Shown one piece after another: positions 34,633 to 42,634 of a stretch of DNA of 64,000 nt. Each line of letters opens with the position of its first letter. Positions within the stretch are counted from its first letter, which is position 1. The position numbers and the translations under genes are program-made. Origin of the DNA: Rothia koreensis. GTDB lineage: Bacteria; Actinomycetota; Actinomycetes; Actinomycetales; Micrococcaceae. The DNA lies in NCBI RefSeq assembly GCF_004136575.1, contig NZ_NOIQ01000001.1:496001-560000 (forward strand), read 5' to 3'. The notes under the pieces are model-generated. The model worked only from the letters and a program-made list of their open reading frames with translations, made no database searches and was not told the DNA's origin.

Positions 34633-35010
34633 GGCGGACGGGCCGGTCATAAGCCGGGTTCTGTCGACGCGAGGTTGACCTCGCGCCGTGACGATCATCC
34701 ATCTAGCCCCTTGGTTGCCCAAGGGGTCGAGCGGCCTACCCGAATGCCTGGGGCGAGCAGCCCTCGTCACGCATTCTGTCTGGCCTTGCTCCGAATGGGG
34801 TTTACCGAGCTTCCCGCGTCGCCGCGGGAACTGGTGGTCTCTTACACCACCGTTTCACCCTTGCCTGCCGAAGCAAGCGGTCTGTTTTCTGTGGCACTGG
34901 CCTGCGGGTTTCCCCGAGTGGACGTTATCCACCATCCTGCTCTGCGGAGCCCGGACTTTCCTCGGGGCGTCGAACACGCCACGCGATCGTCTCGACCGAC
35001 CCGTCCGGGG
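34633..35010 (-). ncRNA. rnpB: RNase P RNA (class A)
   Basis: This is the catalytic RNA of RNase P, which matures tRNA 5' ends. On the - strand the RNA starts with P1 (CGGACGGGTCGGTC), pairing with GACCGGCCCGTCCG at the 3' end. Conserved parts are GAGGAAAGTCCGGGCTCC (CR I), GGGTGAAACGGTGGTGTAAG with GAGACCACC, and the 3' motif ACAGAACCCGGCTTATGACC. Length is about 378 bases. A -10 TAGGAT lies just upstream at 35015-35020. Confidence 0.96.
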
Positions 35011-38194: not shown

Positions 38195-38207
38195 TGAACA
38201 CTGTTCA
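38195..38207. promoter_or_regulatory. BioQ-type operator upstream of bioY
   Basis: TGAACACTGTTCA is a 13-base palindrome, TGAAC-N3-GTTCA, 75 bases before bioY. The BioQ repressor site described in Corynebacterium is TGAAC-N3-GTTAC, so half-sites and spacing agree. It overlaps a likely promoter region (GATAAC just upstream). No bioQ gene is in the window, so this is inference. Confidence 0.55.
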
Positions 38208-38281: not shown

Positions 38282-38875
38282 GTGAATTCAGTACCCGGAG
38301 GGGCCCGCCCGGCCGCGACCGTGCAATCGACTTCGGTAGCGCACTCGATCGCCTATATTGCGGTTTTCGCGGCATTGGTCGCCGTCCTGGGGTTGCCGGG
38401 AAATATCCCCTTGCCCGGGCTCGTGCCGATTACGGCGCAGACCCTCGGAGTCATGCTGGCCGGCGCGGTTCTCGGGGCGCGCAGGGGAGCCCTGTCGATG
38501 ATCCTGTTCCTGGCCCTCGTTGCGATGGGCTTGCCTCTGCTCTCCGGGGGGCGCGGGGGACTGGGTGTGTTCGTGGGTCCGAGCGCGGGGTACATGATCG
38601 CCTGGGTCGTGGGAGCGGCGGTCGTCGGTCTCGTTGTTCGATCGGGGTCGGGGCGACCGACCTGGTTGAAAGCATTCGCCGGGTGCGTCCTCGGCGGAAT
38701 GATCACTCTCTACGTCATCGGAATCCCTGTCCAAGCAGCGGTGACAGGGATGTCGCTCGGCCAGACGTTCACTGCCTCACTGCTCTTCCTGCCCGGAGAC
38801 CTGATCAAGGCCGTCATCGCGAGCATCGTGACCATGGGGCTGTGGAAGGCCTACCCGAGAGCCTTCCACCAGTGA
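38282..38875 (+). CDS. bioY: Biotin transporter S component BioY
   Basis: BioY binds and moves biotin across the membrane, alone or with the BioMN energy-coupling module. From GTG 38282 behind GGAGGAGACA it has 197 residues and six membrane segments. Typical parts are LGLPGNIPLPGLVPITAQTL, GAVLGARRGALSMILFLALV, GLPLLSGGRGGLGVFVGPSA and LPGDLIKAVIASIV. It heads an operon with a ligase, a thiolase, bioM and bioN; overlaps link most of the genes. Confidence 0.95.
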   Translation: MNSVPGGARPAATVQSTSVAHSIAYIAVFAALVAVLGLPGNIPLPGLVPITAQTLGVMLAGAVLGARRGALSMILFLALVAMGLPLLSGGRGGLGVFVGPSAGYMIAWVVGAAVVGLVVRSGSGRPTWLKAFAGCVLGGMITLYVIGIPVQAAVTGMSLGQTFTASLLFLPGDLIKAVIASIVTMGLWKAYPRAFHQ

Positions 38876-40020
38876 CGCACCGGCCAGAACCTGTCCTCGC
38901 CGGCCGCGTCCGGCCGCTCCGGGACCGGGACCACGAACGAGTGCTGCGCGAAGCCCTCGCTGTTCGACGCGCAGGCGACATCCCGTTGATCGGAGACGAG
39001 CGTTGGAGCGAAGACCAGTGGCGCGGCGTCGTCGAGCACGCGACCGGTGCGATCGTCCCCGACGAGGCGGAATGGGCGGCATTGACGTCAGGAAGCACCG
39101 GGCGTCCACGGATCATCCTGAGAACCCAGCAATCGTGGGACATGTCCTATCCGTTCCTGGATGAGTGGGGCGAGCTGACCCCAGCGGACACCATGCTGAT
39201 CGCGGCCCACCCGGTGTCGTCCATGGCCTCCTACGCCGCCTCCCACGCGGCTCATACCGGATTCCCCTTCAATACGCCGGTGAAGCACCGCATGGGACCT
39301 GGAGATATCGCGAGCGCCACGATCCTCCACGGGACGCCGTGGCACCTGCGTGACCTCCTTGATCTGCTCGATGCCGGGCACCCCAGCCCAATGCGTGTGG
39401 CGTTCGTGGGAGGAGACCGGTTGCCCCAGCAATTGCGCCACCGGGCAGCACACCGCGGCATCCGGGTGTTGGGGTACTTCGGGGCTGCCGAGCTGTCCAT
39501 GGTAGCGATCGACGACGGCGACGGCCTGCGAGCCTTCCCGGGTGTGGACCTGCAGACCCGGGACGGCGTCCTCTGGGCGAGAACTGACCAGCGGGCAGTG
39601 GCCGTGCTCGGTACCGGCGGCGCCTATCGAGTCCGAGGAGCCTGGGCCACGGTCGGGGACCGTGCTGTCATAGCAGATGGCCGGCTGAGTCTCCGCGGCC
39701 GGAGCGACGACGCGATACAGACGGCTGGCGCCACCGTCCTCCCGAACGACATCGAGGAAGTCCTCGCGTCGGTCCATGGGGTGCATGCCGCAACCGTGAT
39801 CGGCGTTCCGGACGAACGTGCCGGTCAACTCGTCGCCGCCGCCCTCGAAACCGACGGCGGGGACACCACACAGGTTCTGGAACGCGTCAAGAGCATCGCC
39901 AGAGCGCAACTGACCCCCGCACACATTCCGCGCCGGTGGAAGACGACAACCCGATTGCCACGTACCGGTTCCGGCAAGATACGCAGACCGACGCCTGAAG
40001 AATTCGAGGCACTCCGATGA
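38872..40020 (+). CDS. Short AMP-dependent acyl-CoA ligase in the biotin operon
   Basis: This ANL-superfamily enzyme should activate a carboxylic acid via acyl-AMP to acyl-CoA. It has 382 residues, shorter than the usual 500+, with a reduced N-terminal region. Motifs: A3 LTSGSTGRPRIILRT, A5 GYFGAAELSMV, A8 region DGRLSLRGRSDDAIQTAGAT and A10 LPRTGSGKIRRP with the catalytic Lys. The GTG start overlaps the bioY stop. Context resembles yhfT in B. subtilis yhfUTS, a BirA-regulated bioY-ligase-thiolase group. Substrate (pimelate or fatty acid?) is unknown. Confidence 0.85.
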   Translation: MTHRPEPVLAGRVRPLRDRDHERVLREALAVRRAGDIPLIGDERWSEDQWRGVVEHATGAIVPDEAEWAALTSGSTGRPRIILRTQQSWDMSYPFLDEWGELTPADTMLIAAHPVSSMASYAASHAAHTGFPFNTPVKHRMGPGDIASATILHGTPWHLRDLLDLLDAGHPSPMRVAFVGGDRLPQQLRHRAAHRGIRVLGYFGAAELSMVAIDDGDGLRAFPGVDLQTRDGVLWARTDQRAVAVLGTGGAYRVRGAWATVGDRAVIADGRLSLRGRSDDAIQTAGATVLPNDIEEVLASVHGVHAATVIGVPDERAGQLVAAALETDGGDTTQVLERVKSIARAQLTPAHIPRRWKTTTRLPRTGSGKIRRPTPEEFEALR

Positions 40021-40048
40021 GACTCCCCAGACTCGCCCCAGGAACACC

Positions 40049-41170
40049 ATGCCCCACGCAGCGCTGACCGCGACCCGCCGAACCCCTGTCACCGCCCGCT
40101 CGCGAGCCCTGGCCCACTACCGCGTCGACGAACTCGCGGCCACGGTCCTGGCCGACCTGGCGACGGACTGGGGGCGGGCCCCCGACGGCGTCATGCTCGG
40201 CAACTGCACCGGTCCGGGCGGGAACCTGGGACGCAATGCGGCCCTTGCGGCAGGTTTCGGAGGAAGCTGCGTCGGGTGGGGGATAGACGTCCAATGCGGC
40301 TCGGGACTGGCGGCCGTGCAGCAGGCCGCCCACCAGGTCGCCGCAACCGGCACCACGATCTTTGCGGGCGGGGCCGAATCGGCCTCGACGGCGCCCACAC
40401 GTTCCTACAACGGCGTGCCCTTCGACCGGGCCCCCTTCGCACCTCAGGGGTTTCCCGACCCGGACATGATCGAGGCGGCCGACGCTCTGGCCCGCATCAC
40501 GAGGATCTCCCGGGAAAGGCAAGAAGGCTACGCCGTTCGGAGTCACCGACTCGCCCTGGCTTCGGAGCACCATCGATGGGCGGAAACGAGTTGGATGGTG
40601 GGGAACGATCGGGCCGCCCGAGTCGTCGACGACGGTCCGCGACGACTGACCTCAGAAAGCCTGAGGAGGTTTTCACCCATCATCGACGTGGAGAACGCCA
40701 CCGTGACACCGGGAACGACGGCACGCATCTCGGATGGGGCCGCGGGCGTCGTCGTCGCTCCCCTGGAATCGACGGACGGACCGCATTGGCGCATCATCGC
40801 GTCGACCCTGACCGGCGGGGACCCAGCGGTCCCGGGCCTCGCGCCGGTCGAGGCCACTCAGCAGGCCCTTGCCCATGCAGGGCTCGCGATGGACGACATG
40901 GACGTCATTGAGGTCGTCGAGGCGTTCGCCGCCCAGGTCATCGCTTTTCTCGAGCCCTTTCACCTCGCAACAGGCGATGCCATCGACCCCCGCGTCAACG
41001 CACGCGGAGGGGCGATCGCCCTGGGCCACCCCTGGGGTGCCTCGGGCGCCATCGCCCTGGGCACTCTCATGAATCGGCTCTCGGAAGCAGGGCCGGGAGC
41101 CCGAGGGCTCATGACATGTGCCATTGGAGGGGGTATGGGCGCCACCATGATCTTGGAGTACAACGCATGA
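40049..41170 (+). CDS. Thiolase family protein in the biotin operon
   Basis: Thiolases condense or cleave 3-ketoacyl-CoA. The protein has 373 residues from ATG 40049 (AGGAA upstream). Catalytic residues are visible: Cys in GIDVQCGSGLAAVQQ, His in GGAIALGHPWGASGAIALG and Cys in TCAIGGGMGATMILEY. Between them VEVVEAFAAQVIAFLEP matches the family, where N-E-A-F is more usual. It lies 28 bases after the ligase and overlaps bioM by ATGA. It parallels yhfS of B. subtilis. A role in making a biotin precursor chain is inferred. Confidence 0.88.
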   Translation: MPHAALTATRRTPVTARSRALAHYRVDELAATVLADLATDWGRAPDGVMLGNCTGPGGNLGRNAALAAGFGGSCVGWGIDVQCGSGLAAVQQAAHQVAATGTTIFAGGAESASTAPTRSYNGVPFDRAPFAPQGFPDPDMIEAADALARITRISRERQEGYAVRSHRLALASEHHRWAETSWMVGNDRAARVVDDGPRRLTSESLRRFSPIIDVENATVTPGTTARISDGAAGVVVAPLESTDGPHWRIIASTLTGGDPAVPGLAPVEATQQALAHAGLAMDDMDVIEVVEAFAAQVIAFLEPFHLATGDAIDPRVNARGGAIALGHPWGASGAIALGTLMNRLSEAGPGARGLMTCAIGGGMGATMILEYNA

Positions 41171-41859
41171 GCATCACCATCGACAACCTGACGGTCGAAG
41201 TTGACGGCCCGGAGGGGCGGACCCTCCTGCTCGACTCGGTTACGGCCGACCTCGACGCGCCCCGCATCGCCATCATCGGGGAGAACGGTTCCGGGAAATC
41301 CACGCTGACCAAAGCCATCGCCGGGCTCGTGCAGCCGACCGCCGGAAAGGTCGCCGTCAACGGAATCGACACCGTGGGGCAGGCCAAGCGGCTGCGGCGC
41401 GCCGTAGGATTTGTGTTCGCAAACCCCGGGGCGCAGACCATCATGCCCACGGTGCGCGAAGACATCGCCCTGACGCTTCGCGGAAGAAAGCTGTCCCGAG
41501 AGGAGATCTCGGCGAGAGTCGAAGAAGCCATCCGAGAACACGAGCTCGAAGATCTGGCGGACCGCCCGTGCCATGCGCTCTCGAGCGGCCAGATGCAGCG
41601 TCTGGCTTTGTGCTCCGTGCTGGTCGGCGAACCCGATCTGGTCATCGCTGACGAGCCAACCAGTCTGTTGGATGCACGGCATCGACGCATCATCGCGCGG
41701 CGATTGCTCGAACCGGCGGCCCCGCAGGTGCTCCTCGTGACGCATGACCTCGACTTGGCCAGACACTGTGATCAGGCAGTGCTGATCGCCGATGGCTCGC
41801 TTGCGGAACAGGGCGACCCGGCGCACGTGATTGATTGCTACGAACGGATTCTGGCGTGA
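41167..41859 (+). CDS. bioM: ECF transporter ATPase BioM
   Basis: This ABC ATPase energises BioY. It has 230 residues from ATG 41167. Walker A is IIGENGSGKSTLTKAI, Q loop GFVFANPGAQTIMPTV, signature ALSSGQMQRLALCSVL (second Ser instead of Gly), Walker B DLVIADEPTSLLDA and the switch His in LLVTHDLDLA. It overlaps the thiolase before it and bioN after it. Confidence 0.93.
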   Translation: MSITIDNLTVEVDGPEGRTLLLDSVTADLDAPRIAIIGENGSGKSTLTKAIAGLVQPTAGKVAVNGIDTVGQAKRLRRAVGFVFANPGAQTIMPTVREDIALTLRGRKLSREEISARVEEAIREHELEDLADRPCHALSSGQMQRLALCSVLVGEPDLVIADEPTSLLDARHRRIIARRLLEPAAPQVLLVTHDLDLARHCDQAVLIADGSLAEQGDPAHVIDCYERILA

Positions 41860-42467
41860 TCTCCCTCTACTCTCCGGGAAACAGCCCCGTTCACAGGATG
41901 CCCGTGGGCGGCAAGCTTGTCTCCTTCGCACTCGTCGCCCTCGGGCTCTCCTTTGCACCGGCGACGTGGTGGACGATCGGCGTGTGTCTGGTCATCGCGC
42001 CCGTTGCATACGCGCTTGCGGGGCTCGGAATGCGGTTGTTGTTCAAGGATCTGCGCGGACTCCTGCTGATCCTTGTTTTCCTGGCGGTGACCCAGGCGAT
42101 ATTCCTCGAACCGATCGACGCCGTCCGCAACACCGTGCGGGTCCTGGCGATTATTCTGCTGGCCCAGGTCGTCACCCGAACCACGCCGGTCCAGGGGATG
42201 ATCGAAACCTGCGAACGAGTCCTGGGGCCATTTCGACGTTTTGGTGTGAACCCGGAACGCATTGGCCTCGCCATGGCTCTGACCTTGACGTCCGTCAACC
42301 AGCTCGGAGCGATCGTCAAGGAGGTCAAGGACGCGCAGAAGGCCAGGGGAGTGCGGATCGCACCGTGGGCATGGGTCATGCCCGTCCTGGTGCTTACTCT
42401 GCAGCACGCAGACCAAGTCGGCGACGCCCTGGAAGCAAGGGGTTTGGGCGGGTCGGACGAGGACTGA
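41856..42467 (+). CDS. bioN: ECF transporter transmembrane component BioN
   Basis: BioN is the T component that couples BioM to BioY. From a GTG overlapping the bioM stop it has 203 residues and four to five membrane segments. The two Ala-Arg-Gly-type coupling motifs appear as KDAQKARGVRI and DALEARGLGG. The start ISLYSPGNSPVHRMPVGGKL is typical. It ends the operon; terminator and tRNA-His lie downstream on the other strand. Confidence 0.93.
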   Translation: MISLYSPGNSPVHRMPVGGKLVSFALVALGLSFAPATWWTIGVCLVIAPVAYALAGLGMRLLFKDLRGLLLILVFLAVTQAIFLEPIDAVRNTVRVLAIILLAQVVTRTTPVQGMIETCERVLGPFRRFGVNPERIGLAMALTLTSVNQLGAIVKEVKDAQKARGVRIAPWAWVMPVLVLTLQHADQVGDALEARGLGGSDED

Positions 42468-42557: not shown

Positions 42558-42634
42558 TGGGGTGAGCGACGGGGTTTGAACCCGCGACCTCCTGGACCAC
42601 AACCAGGCGCTCTGCCGACTGAGCTACGCCCACC
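42558..42634 (-). tRNA. tRNA-His (anticodon GTG)
   Basis: Acceptor arms GTGGGCG and CGCTCAC pair, and an extra 5' G (42634) faces discriminator C, the identity mark of tRNA-His. The anticodon loop is TTGTGGT-like within CCTGG...CCAGG, anticodon GTG. The T loop is TTCAAAC and CCA is encoded. Confidence 0.96.

Follow-up and report, generated by a model that had tools for sequence, protein, structure and literature searches.

In Bacillus subtilis and Staphylococcus aureus, the gene pair yhfS-yhfT is controlled by the biotin repressor BirA, as is the biotin transporter gene bioY; the accessible text of two papers gives this control and calls the S. aureus products only putative (PMC6391492, PMC7235819), and the accessible text of a review gives the same control for both species (PMC11089781). 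The BioQ sites predicted in Corynebacterium glutamicum have the form TGAAC-N3-GTTCA, according to the accessible part of the report (PMC3398298). Here, we describe a five-gene unit of Rothia koreensis, located at positions 38282–42467 of the window (the whole 64,000-nucleotide stretch analyzed, positions 496,001–560,000 of contig NZ_NOIQ01000001.1), in which bioY, an adenosine monophosphate (AMP)-forming acyl-coenzyme A (CoA) ligase gene, a thiolase-family gene, bioM, and bioN are tightly packed. As in the yhfUTS group of B. subtilis, bioY has the ligase and thiolase genes adjacent to it, and the likeness to this BirA-regulon group, which had been pointed out in the original prediction from the sequence, is sound in the light of the accessible text of all three papers on yhfS-yhfT control cited above. 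In the portions of the open-access literature searched, no description was found of an actinobacterial bioY-ligase-thiolase operon or of its lost thiolase residues. We found that the ligase and the thiolase-family protein are a real partner of the biotin energy-coupling factor (ECF) transporter, and that the latter protein has lost residues of the thiolase active site; we tentatively propose that the two act on the uptake side of biotin metabolism.

The five genes all lie on the forward strand. The bioY gene (38282–38875) starts with GTG just downstream of a GGAGGAG site and encodes the 197-residue substrate-binding component of the ECF biotin transporter. It is followed by the ligase gene (38872–40020; 382 residues), the thiolase-family gene (40049–41170; 373 residues), bioM (41167–41859; 230 residues), which encodes the ECF ATPase, and bioN (41856–42467; 203 residues, GTG start), which encodes the ECF transmembrane component of the CbiQ family. 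The bioY/ligase, thiolase/bioM, and bioM/bioN junctions are 4-base overlaps, and the ligase and thiolase genes are separated by 28 bases. All Pfam scores exceeded the curated cut-offs given in parentheses: BioY, 124.2 bits (25); AMP-binding, 36.8 (29.9); AMP-binding_C, 48.6 (24.5); Thiolase_N, 90.9 (26.4); Thiolase_C, 101.3 (27); ABC_tran, 103.3 (25); and CbiQ, 48.5 (25). In these family searches bioN was entered from position 41859, one codon short. Thus, one operon encodes all three components (S, A, and T) of an ECF biotin transporter, and the previously predicted gene identities and coupling are borne out by the coordinates, overlaps, and Pfam scores. In the NCBIfam scan, the top match of BioM was ECF_ATPase_1, under its cut-off (177 of 315 bits), and BioN had no match. 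Single-sequence structure models, with mean predicted local distance difference test scores of 33 and 39, were of no use.

The linkage was examined in 2 genome sets, in both of which the ligase of this genome served as the query or stood in the profile, so that its own match is given by construction. In the set of 119 near relatives (this genome included), a ligase match at E ≤1e-25 was found in 26 genomes, and bioY, ligase, and thiolase genes lay side by side in 22 of the 26 loci, more than chance would give. Elsewhere, bioY and the ligase gene stand at a contig edge (G024), ligase and thiolase genes share a short contig (G086), the 2 genes lie no more than about 2 kb from bioM and bioN, past which a longer stretch shows bioY (G058), or the ligase gene stands alone (G052). 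These carrier counts are lower bounds, as one carrier (G056), whose ligase is more divergent, fell outside the cut-off. The class-wide sample of 394 genomes, searched with a ligase profile, gave 50 matches at E ≤1e-50; the 3 genes occurred together in all 30 loci of the best 30 of these 50 matches, 5 of the 30 being genomes already in the near-relative set. Eight loci were examined among the 20 matches outside the best 30: all 5 genes are present in G393 and G373, G317 and G435 have the order bioM-bioN-bioY-ligase-thiolase, G230 has bioY-thiolase-bioM-bioN-ligase, G071 has 2 neighboring groups, in G042 the ligase and thiolase genes are about 32 kb distant from bioYMN, and in G242 the ligase gene stands alone on a short contig. 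The order of the window recurs in a Nonomuraea record, and two Azospirillum plasmids carry bioM-bioN-bioY-ligase-thiolase; genes for major facilitator superfamily transporters lie directly 3′ of the Azospirillum units (L108 8210–9459 and L111 8385–9620). That these partners stay together through repeated rearrangement argues that the partnership is functional. Moreover, only the 5 genes are common to all 13 extended loci (12 relatives and the window, picked for carrying the unit, with antisense frames over these genes ignored), and the unit therefore looks self-contained. A single-protein contig scan yielded only a weak Acidimicrobiales match, with no bioY in its locus.

The thiolase-family protein scored above the curated cut-off of TIGR01930 (246.1 versus 240.55 bits). 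In the Zoogloea thiolase, according to the accessible text on that enzyme, Cys89 acts as the nucleophile, the oxyanion hole is formed by Asn316 and His348, and Cys378 is the base (PMC3406046); a study in the reference list of that paper concerns the Cys378-to-Ser change, which alters acetyl-enzyme partitioning. The window protein has Cys83 at the Cys89 column and His327 (in a GHP motif) at the His348 column, and has Val290 in place of Asn316 of the NEAF motif and Ala358 in place of Cys378 of the CxG motif. These columns fall in ungapped parts of the alignments to PDB 1ULQ; the Cys378 column was set with a Niallia reference, with which the PDB alignments agree. The same pattern was found across 51 copies, namely 50 with bioY in the locus and that of G086, whose bioY is on another contig; the copies of G058, Rhizobium etli, and Niallia were excluded, and some columns were not scorable in 2 cut copies (G094, at the locus end, and L140). 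Cys89 is retained in 51 of 51 copies and His348 in all 50 scored, while all 49 copies scored have Ala, Ser, or Gly instead of Cys378, and 48 of 50 have Val, Thr, Ile, or Gln instead of Asn316, Asn being found only in the two Azospirillum copies. In 9 further copies, one of them a repeat (L161 is the same as G174) and one unlinked (G042), Cys378 is absent from all 9 and Asn316 is kept in 6. By comparison, the other 5 thiolases of this genome keep Cys378, 4 in the column itself and 1 in a shifted LCGGGG motif. Because the base, and usually Asn316 as well, is gone, the protein would not be expected to make or break C–C bonds; judged from these residues, it is probably a former of acyl-enzymes and not an ordinary thiolase. 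Hereafter, we call it the thiolase-fold protein. On the R. etli plasmid pRetIE4771d, thioesterase, AMP-ligase, and thiolase-family genes stand in a row without bioY (L107 3818–6933). The thiolase of that row also lacks Cys378 (Gly in its place), which indicates that pairs of a ligase and a Cys378-less thiolase extend beyond biotin.

The ligase retains the core motifs of its family (P-loop, A5, hinge, and lysine), with the P-loop TSGSTG, YFGAAE, VGD, GR, and the catalytic lysine in PRTGSGK. Residues S73, G74, R84, S88, W89, and K369 are invariant across 15 aligned members, R84, S88, and W89 following the P-loop. The protein lacks the beginning of its N-terminal region, the Pfam match starting only at profile position 158. 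The original prediction had singled out the shortness of the ligase (about 380 residues); the size itself was confirmed, and yet it is not diagnostic, since relatives with the same linkage have ligases of 450–537 residues. As linked ligases range from about 350 to 537 residues (some starts being uncertain), the shortness is, on the evidence of these lengths, a lineage-specific trimming; NCBIfam also holds a MenE model of only 362 positions. In a profile comparison, MenE and fatty-acid or aromatic-acid ligases were the closest solved structures, which does not fix the substrate, and the resemblance to MenE and benzoate ligases is at least as strong as that to fatty-acid ligases.

The BioY of the window matches the BioY of PDB 4dve with an E value of 5e-23, and this resemblance makes biotin itself or a close analogue the likely cargo. 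In a 55-row tree, the BioYs of such cassettes group together, with 3 label changes versus 18.3 in shuffles; G056 was labeled as a non-carrier in this tree and is in truth the carrier with the more divergent ligase. Five BioYs from non-carriers of the same genus fall in another cluster, and G050 and G060 each have a second BioY. For the comparison of BioY positions, the non-cassette rows G044, G056, and G073 were left out, since they group with the cassette BioYs. An altered specificity of the cassette BioY was considered and set aside: the cassette BioYs are a cluster apart, but the GLPxLxGGxGG stretch in them is similar to that of the 4dve BioY, an entry titled biotin transporter, and a different substrate cannot be claimed.

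Upstream of the unit, a BioQ-type operator (TGAACACTGTTCA, 38195–38207, no strand assigned) lies 74 bases 5′ of the bioY start and fits TGAAC-N3-GTTCA exactly. A whole-genome scan with the 13-base pattern, allowing at most 1 mismatch and not the looser TGAAC-N3-GTTCA form, hit 4 places: this operon, the region before bioA (bioA-bioF::P450-bioD), the region before bioB, and a phage-like coding stretch. The sites before bioA and bioB have 1 mismatch each; the fourth match was taken as chance, and the reversed control pattern also matched once. The operator was seen 5′ of bioY in 15 unit-bearing genomes and is present before bioY in G007 (L009). A TetR_N protein encoded two genes from bioB (L084 7303–7914, reverse strand) is a candidate BioQ of this genome. 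An Rfam scan of the window at gathering scores gave no riboswitch or other regulatory RNA; its 4 matches were RNase P RNA and 3 tRNAs, among them class A RNase P RNA upstream of the operon (34635–35003, reverse strand) and a tRNA gene just past it (42561–42633, reverse strand).

Many carriers of the ligase have no match to bioB: 17 of the 26 near relatives and 37 of the 50 class-level genomes (24 of the 30 in which the linkage was seen, and 32 of 41 at a ligase threshold of E ≤1e-75). In the class sample, bioB was found in 13 of 50 genomes with the ligase versus 184 of 344 without it (Fisher p 4e-4, uncorrected for relatedness). Our preferred reading, put forward tentatively, is that the ligase and the thiolase-fold protein form a pair for acyl activation and acyl transfer, whose substrate would be imported biotin or a close analogue. 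In this scheme, (i) low biotin would free a BioQ-type repressor from the operator, as the site suggests; (ii) BioYMN, by family knowledge, would import biotin or a close analogue; (iii) the ligase would activate the valeryl carboxyl to an adenylate and then to a CoA thioester, a chemistry known from its family with a presumed substrate; and (iv) the thiolase-fold protein would use Cys83, together with His327, to take up the acyl group and would then pass it on or release it, as its residues suggest. The outcome would be that scarce biotin is captured or held, or that a biotin derivative is processed, in cells dependent on uptake, and not a step of biotin synthesis. A narrower form of the proposal, which we regard as rather unlikely, is a transporter with its own metabolic trapping, in which the ligase captures biotin as an acyl-adenylate or CoA thioester and a thiolase fold stripped of C–C chemistry holds or relays it. 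In S. aureus, biotin leakage and its recapture by BioY are described in the accessible text of one report (PMC12642757), which makes a holding function plausible; no acyl-carrier use of the thiolase fold was found described in the accessible parts of the open-access literature searched.

Several observations weigh against this proposal. Copies in the order bioM-bioN-bioY-ligase-thiolase keep Asn316, and a Cys stands one residue before the lost base in 16 of 49 copies, including that of the window, and might still serve in compensation. Some ligase–thiolase pairs are not next to biotin transporter genes, namely those on the R. etli plasmid and in G042 (about 32 kb from bioYMN), and hence their chemistry need not concern biotin. 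The near relatives show no association between the ligase and bioB (bioB in 9 of 26 with the ligase versus 30 of 93 without, p 0.82). Apart from the loci with the operator, those scanned had none within 500 bases of bioY, so that BioQ-type control, its site seen in 15 genomes, is not general. Finally, full-length FadB is commoner with the ligase (24 of 26 versus 45 of 93, or 46 counting a full-length, 29%-identical match in G049), which is what a link to β-oxidation would predict.

The FadB signal bears on the first alternative, the salvage of shortened side chains, in which the ligase would activate bisnorbiotin-type acids, the thiolase would add 2 carbons from acetyl-CoA, and general fatty-acid enzymes would reduce the product to biotinyl-CoA. 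Such a route would operate without bioB, and the family HADH (PF02737) occurs in all 26 near relatives with the ligase versus 70 of 93 others. The FadB list was compiled by hand, the G049 match being left uncounted, and it differs within and outside the genus: FadB is present in 8 of 8 carriers (in two pieces in G024) versus 0 of 27 others inside the genus, possibly through one event, and in 16 of 18 versus 45 of 66 outside it (p 0.13; no clear enrichment). The dependence is thus suggestive, mostly a within-genus signal and confounded there, and its co-occurrence keeps a β-oxidation-type salvage alive. Against it, a Claisen condensation depends on the base and, as a rule, on the oxyanion Asn, the former lost in all scored copies and the latter in most; the 13 extended loci share no reductase or hydratase; and the ligase-bearing G054 and G086 have no full FadB. 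We consider salvage of this kind unlikely.

Comparably doubtful is an adaptation of lipid metabolism to biotin shortage: as acetyl-CoA carboxylase slows, fatty acids would be recycled by the ligase and thiolase, and malonyl-CoA would thereby be spared. The biotin-repressor control seen in S. aureus, as given in the accessible text on it (PMC6391492, PMC7235819), and the BioQ-type site here would fit such a response, as would the FadB co-occurrence; yet the genes sit within a transporter operon that has a BioY type of its own, the thiolase residues are lost, and the ligase is as close to MenE and benzoate ligases as to fatty-acid ligases, or closer.

A far less probable alternative is the synthesis or salvage of pimeloyl-CoA for BioF, the "pimeloyl-type precursor" option of the original prediction, which had also called for a check of the bio genes. 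This genome has bioB, bioA (500 versus a cut-off of 405 bits, NCBIfam), a bioD-like frame under its cut-off (69.9 versus 83.3), and BioF fused to a P450. BioF scored about 242–244 bits, below its 426-bit cut-off, and makes up the N-terminal portion of a protein of 765 residues encoded on the reverse strand between bioA and bioD (L083 7663–9960, which is G000:C4:25662–27959); the C-terminal part resembles cytochromes P450 (phmmer against PDB, 3e-25; heme motif FGHGIHRCLG; Pfam p450 18.5 bits, under the cut-off). A bioF-bioD fusion was ruled out by NCBIfam, PDB, and the sequence, which show BioF::P450 and, apart from it, a frame for bioD. G003 has a frame as long as this fusion (L089 8009–10315). 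BioI is reported as the pimeloyl source in B. subtilis and is called unique to that species in the accessible text of one source (PMC12915131). By its domains, BioF::P450 is a candidate pimeloyl source in this genome, possibly a BioF::BioI-type enzyme making its own pimeloyl thioester. The operator common to the unit, bioA, and bioB would suit a precursor role; nevertheless, condensation by this thiolase cannot be assumed, the candidate source just described already exists, and most class-level ligase genomes have no bioB match. As pimeloyl-CoA yields no biotin where bioB is missing, a precursor role of the pair, unlikely in any case, cannot be general, and as a general role it is close to refuted and was rejected. 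Biotin antimetabolites are known from actinomycetes, and a ligase and a thiolase fold could divert carboxylic analogues imported by BioY, but disposal of toxic analogues is highly improbable, as induction on biotin starvation would be ill-timed and biotin itself would presumably be consumed.

Our preferred reading, an acyl-activation and acyl-transfer pair on the uptake side, thus draws on a pairing tied to biotin transporters in actinobacteria and Azospirillum, common without bioB, and with a base-less thiolase, and it moves the question from synthesis to uptake; biotin capture in turn matters for how well auxotrophs fare in communities. The closest counterparts of the unit are yhfUTS of B. 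subtilis and bioY with yhfS-yhfT of S. aureus, in which a biotin repressor likewise governs bioY together with genes for an acyl-CoA ligase and a thiolase-family protein. Within NCBIfam, the specific models most closely related to the Azospirillum and G317 versions are PRK07638 and PRK06690, which we take to be YhfT and YhfS. Unlike in yhfUTS, the pair of the window is flanked by bioY and bioMN, the ligase has a trimmed N terminus, the site is of BioQ type (a BirA site was not sought), and the PRK07638 and PRK06690 scores fall far below the cut-offs (90.9 of 518 and 224 of 498 bits, respectively). Vectorial acylation, the FadL-FadD type of trapping that couples import to CoA activation of the imported acid, resembles the scheme proposed here in joining the same 2 steps, and differs in substrate, transporter class, and the thiolase-fold partner. 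The bioYMN genes of C. glutamicum also encode an ECF biotin transporter with predicted BioQ sites and are induced by biotin limitation, but in the accessible text they are described as a three-gene operon (PMC3398298), versus 5 genes here. The BioW, BioI, and BioZ pimeloyl routes, as in the window, tie acyl activation or condensation to biotin; they feed BioF, however, according to the accessible text on them (PMC12915131), whereas units of the window type often occur without bioB.

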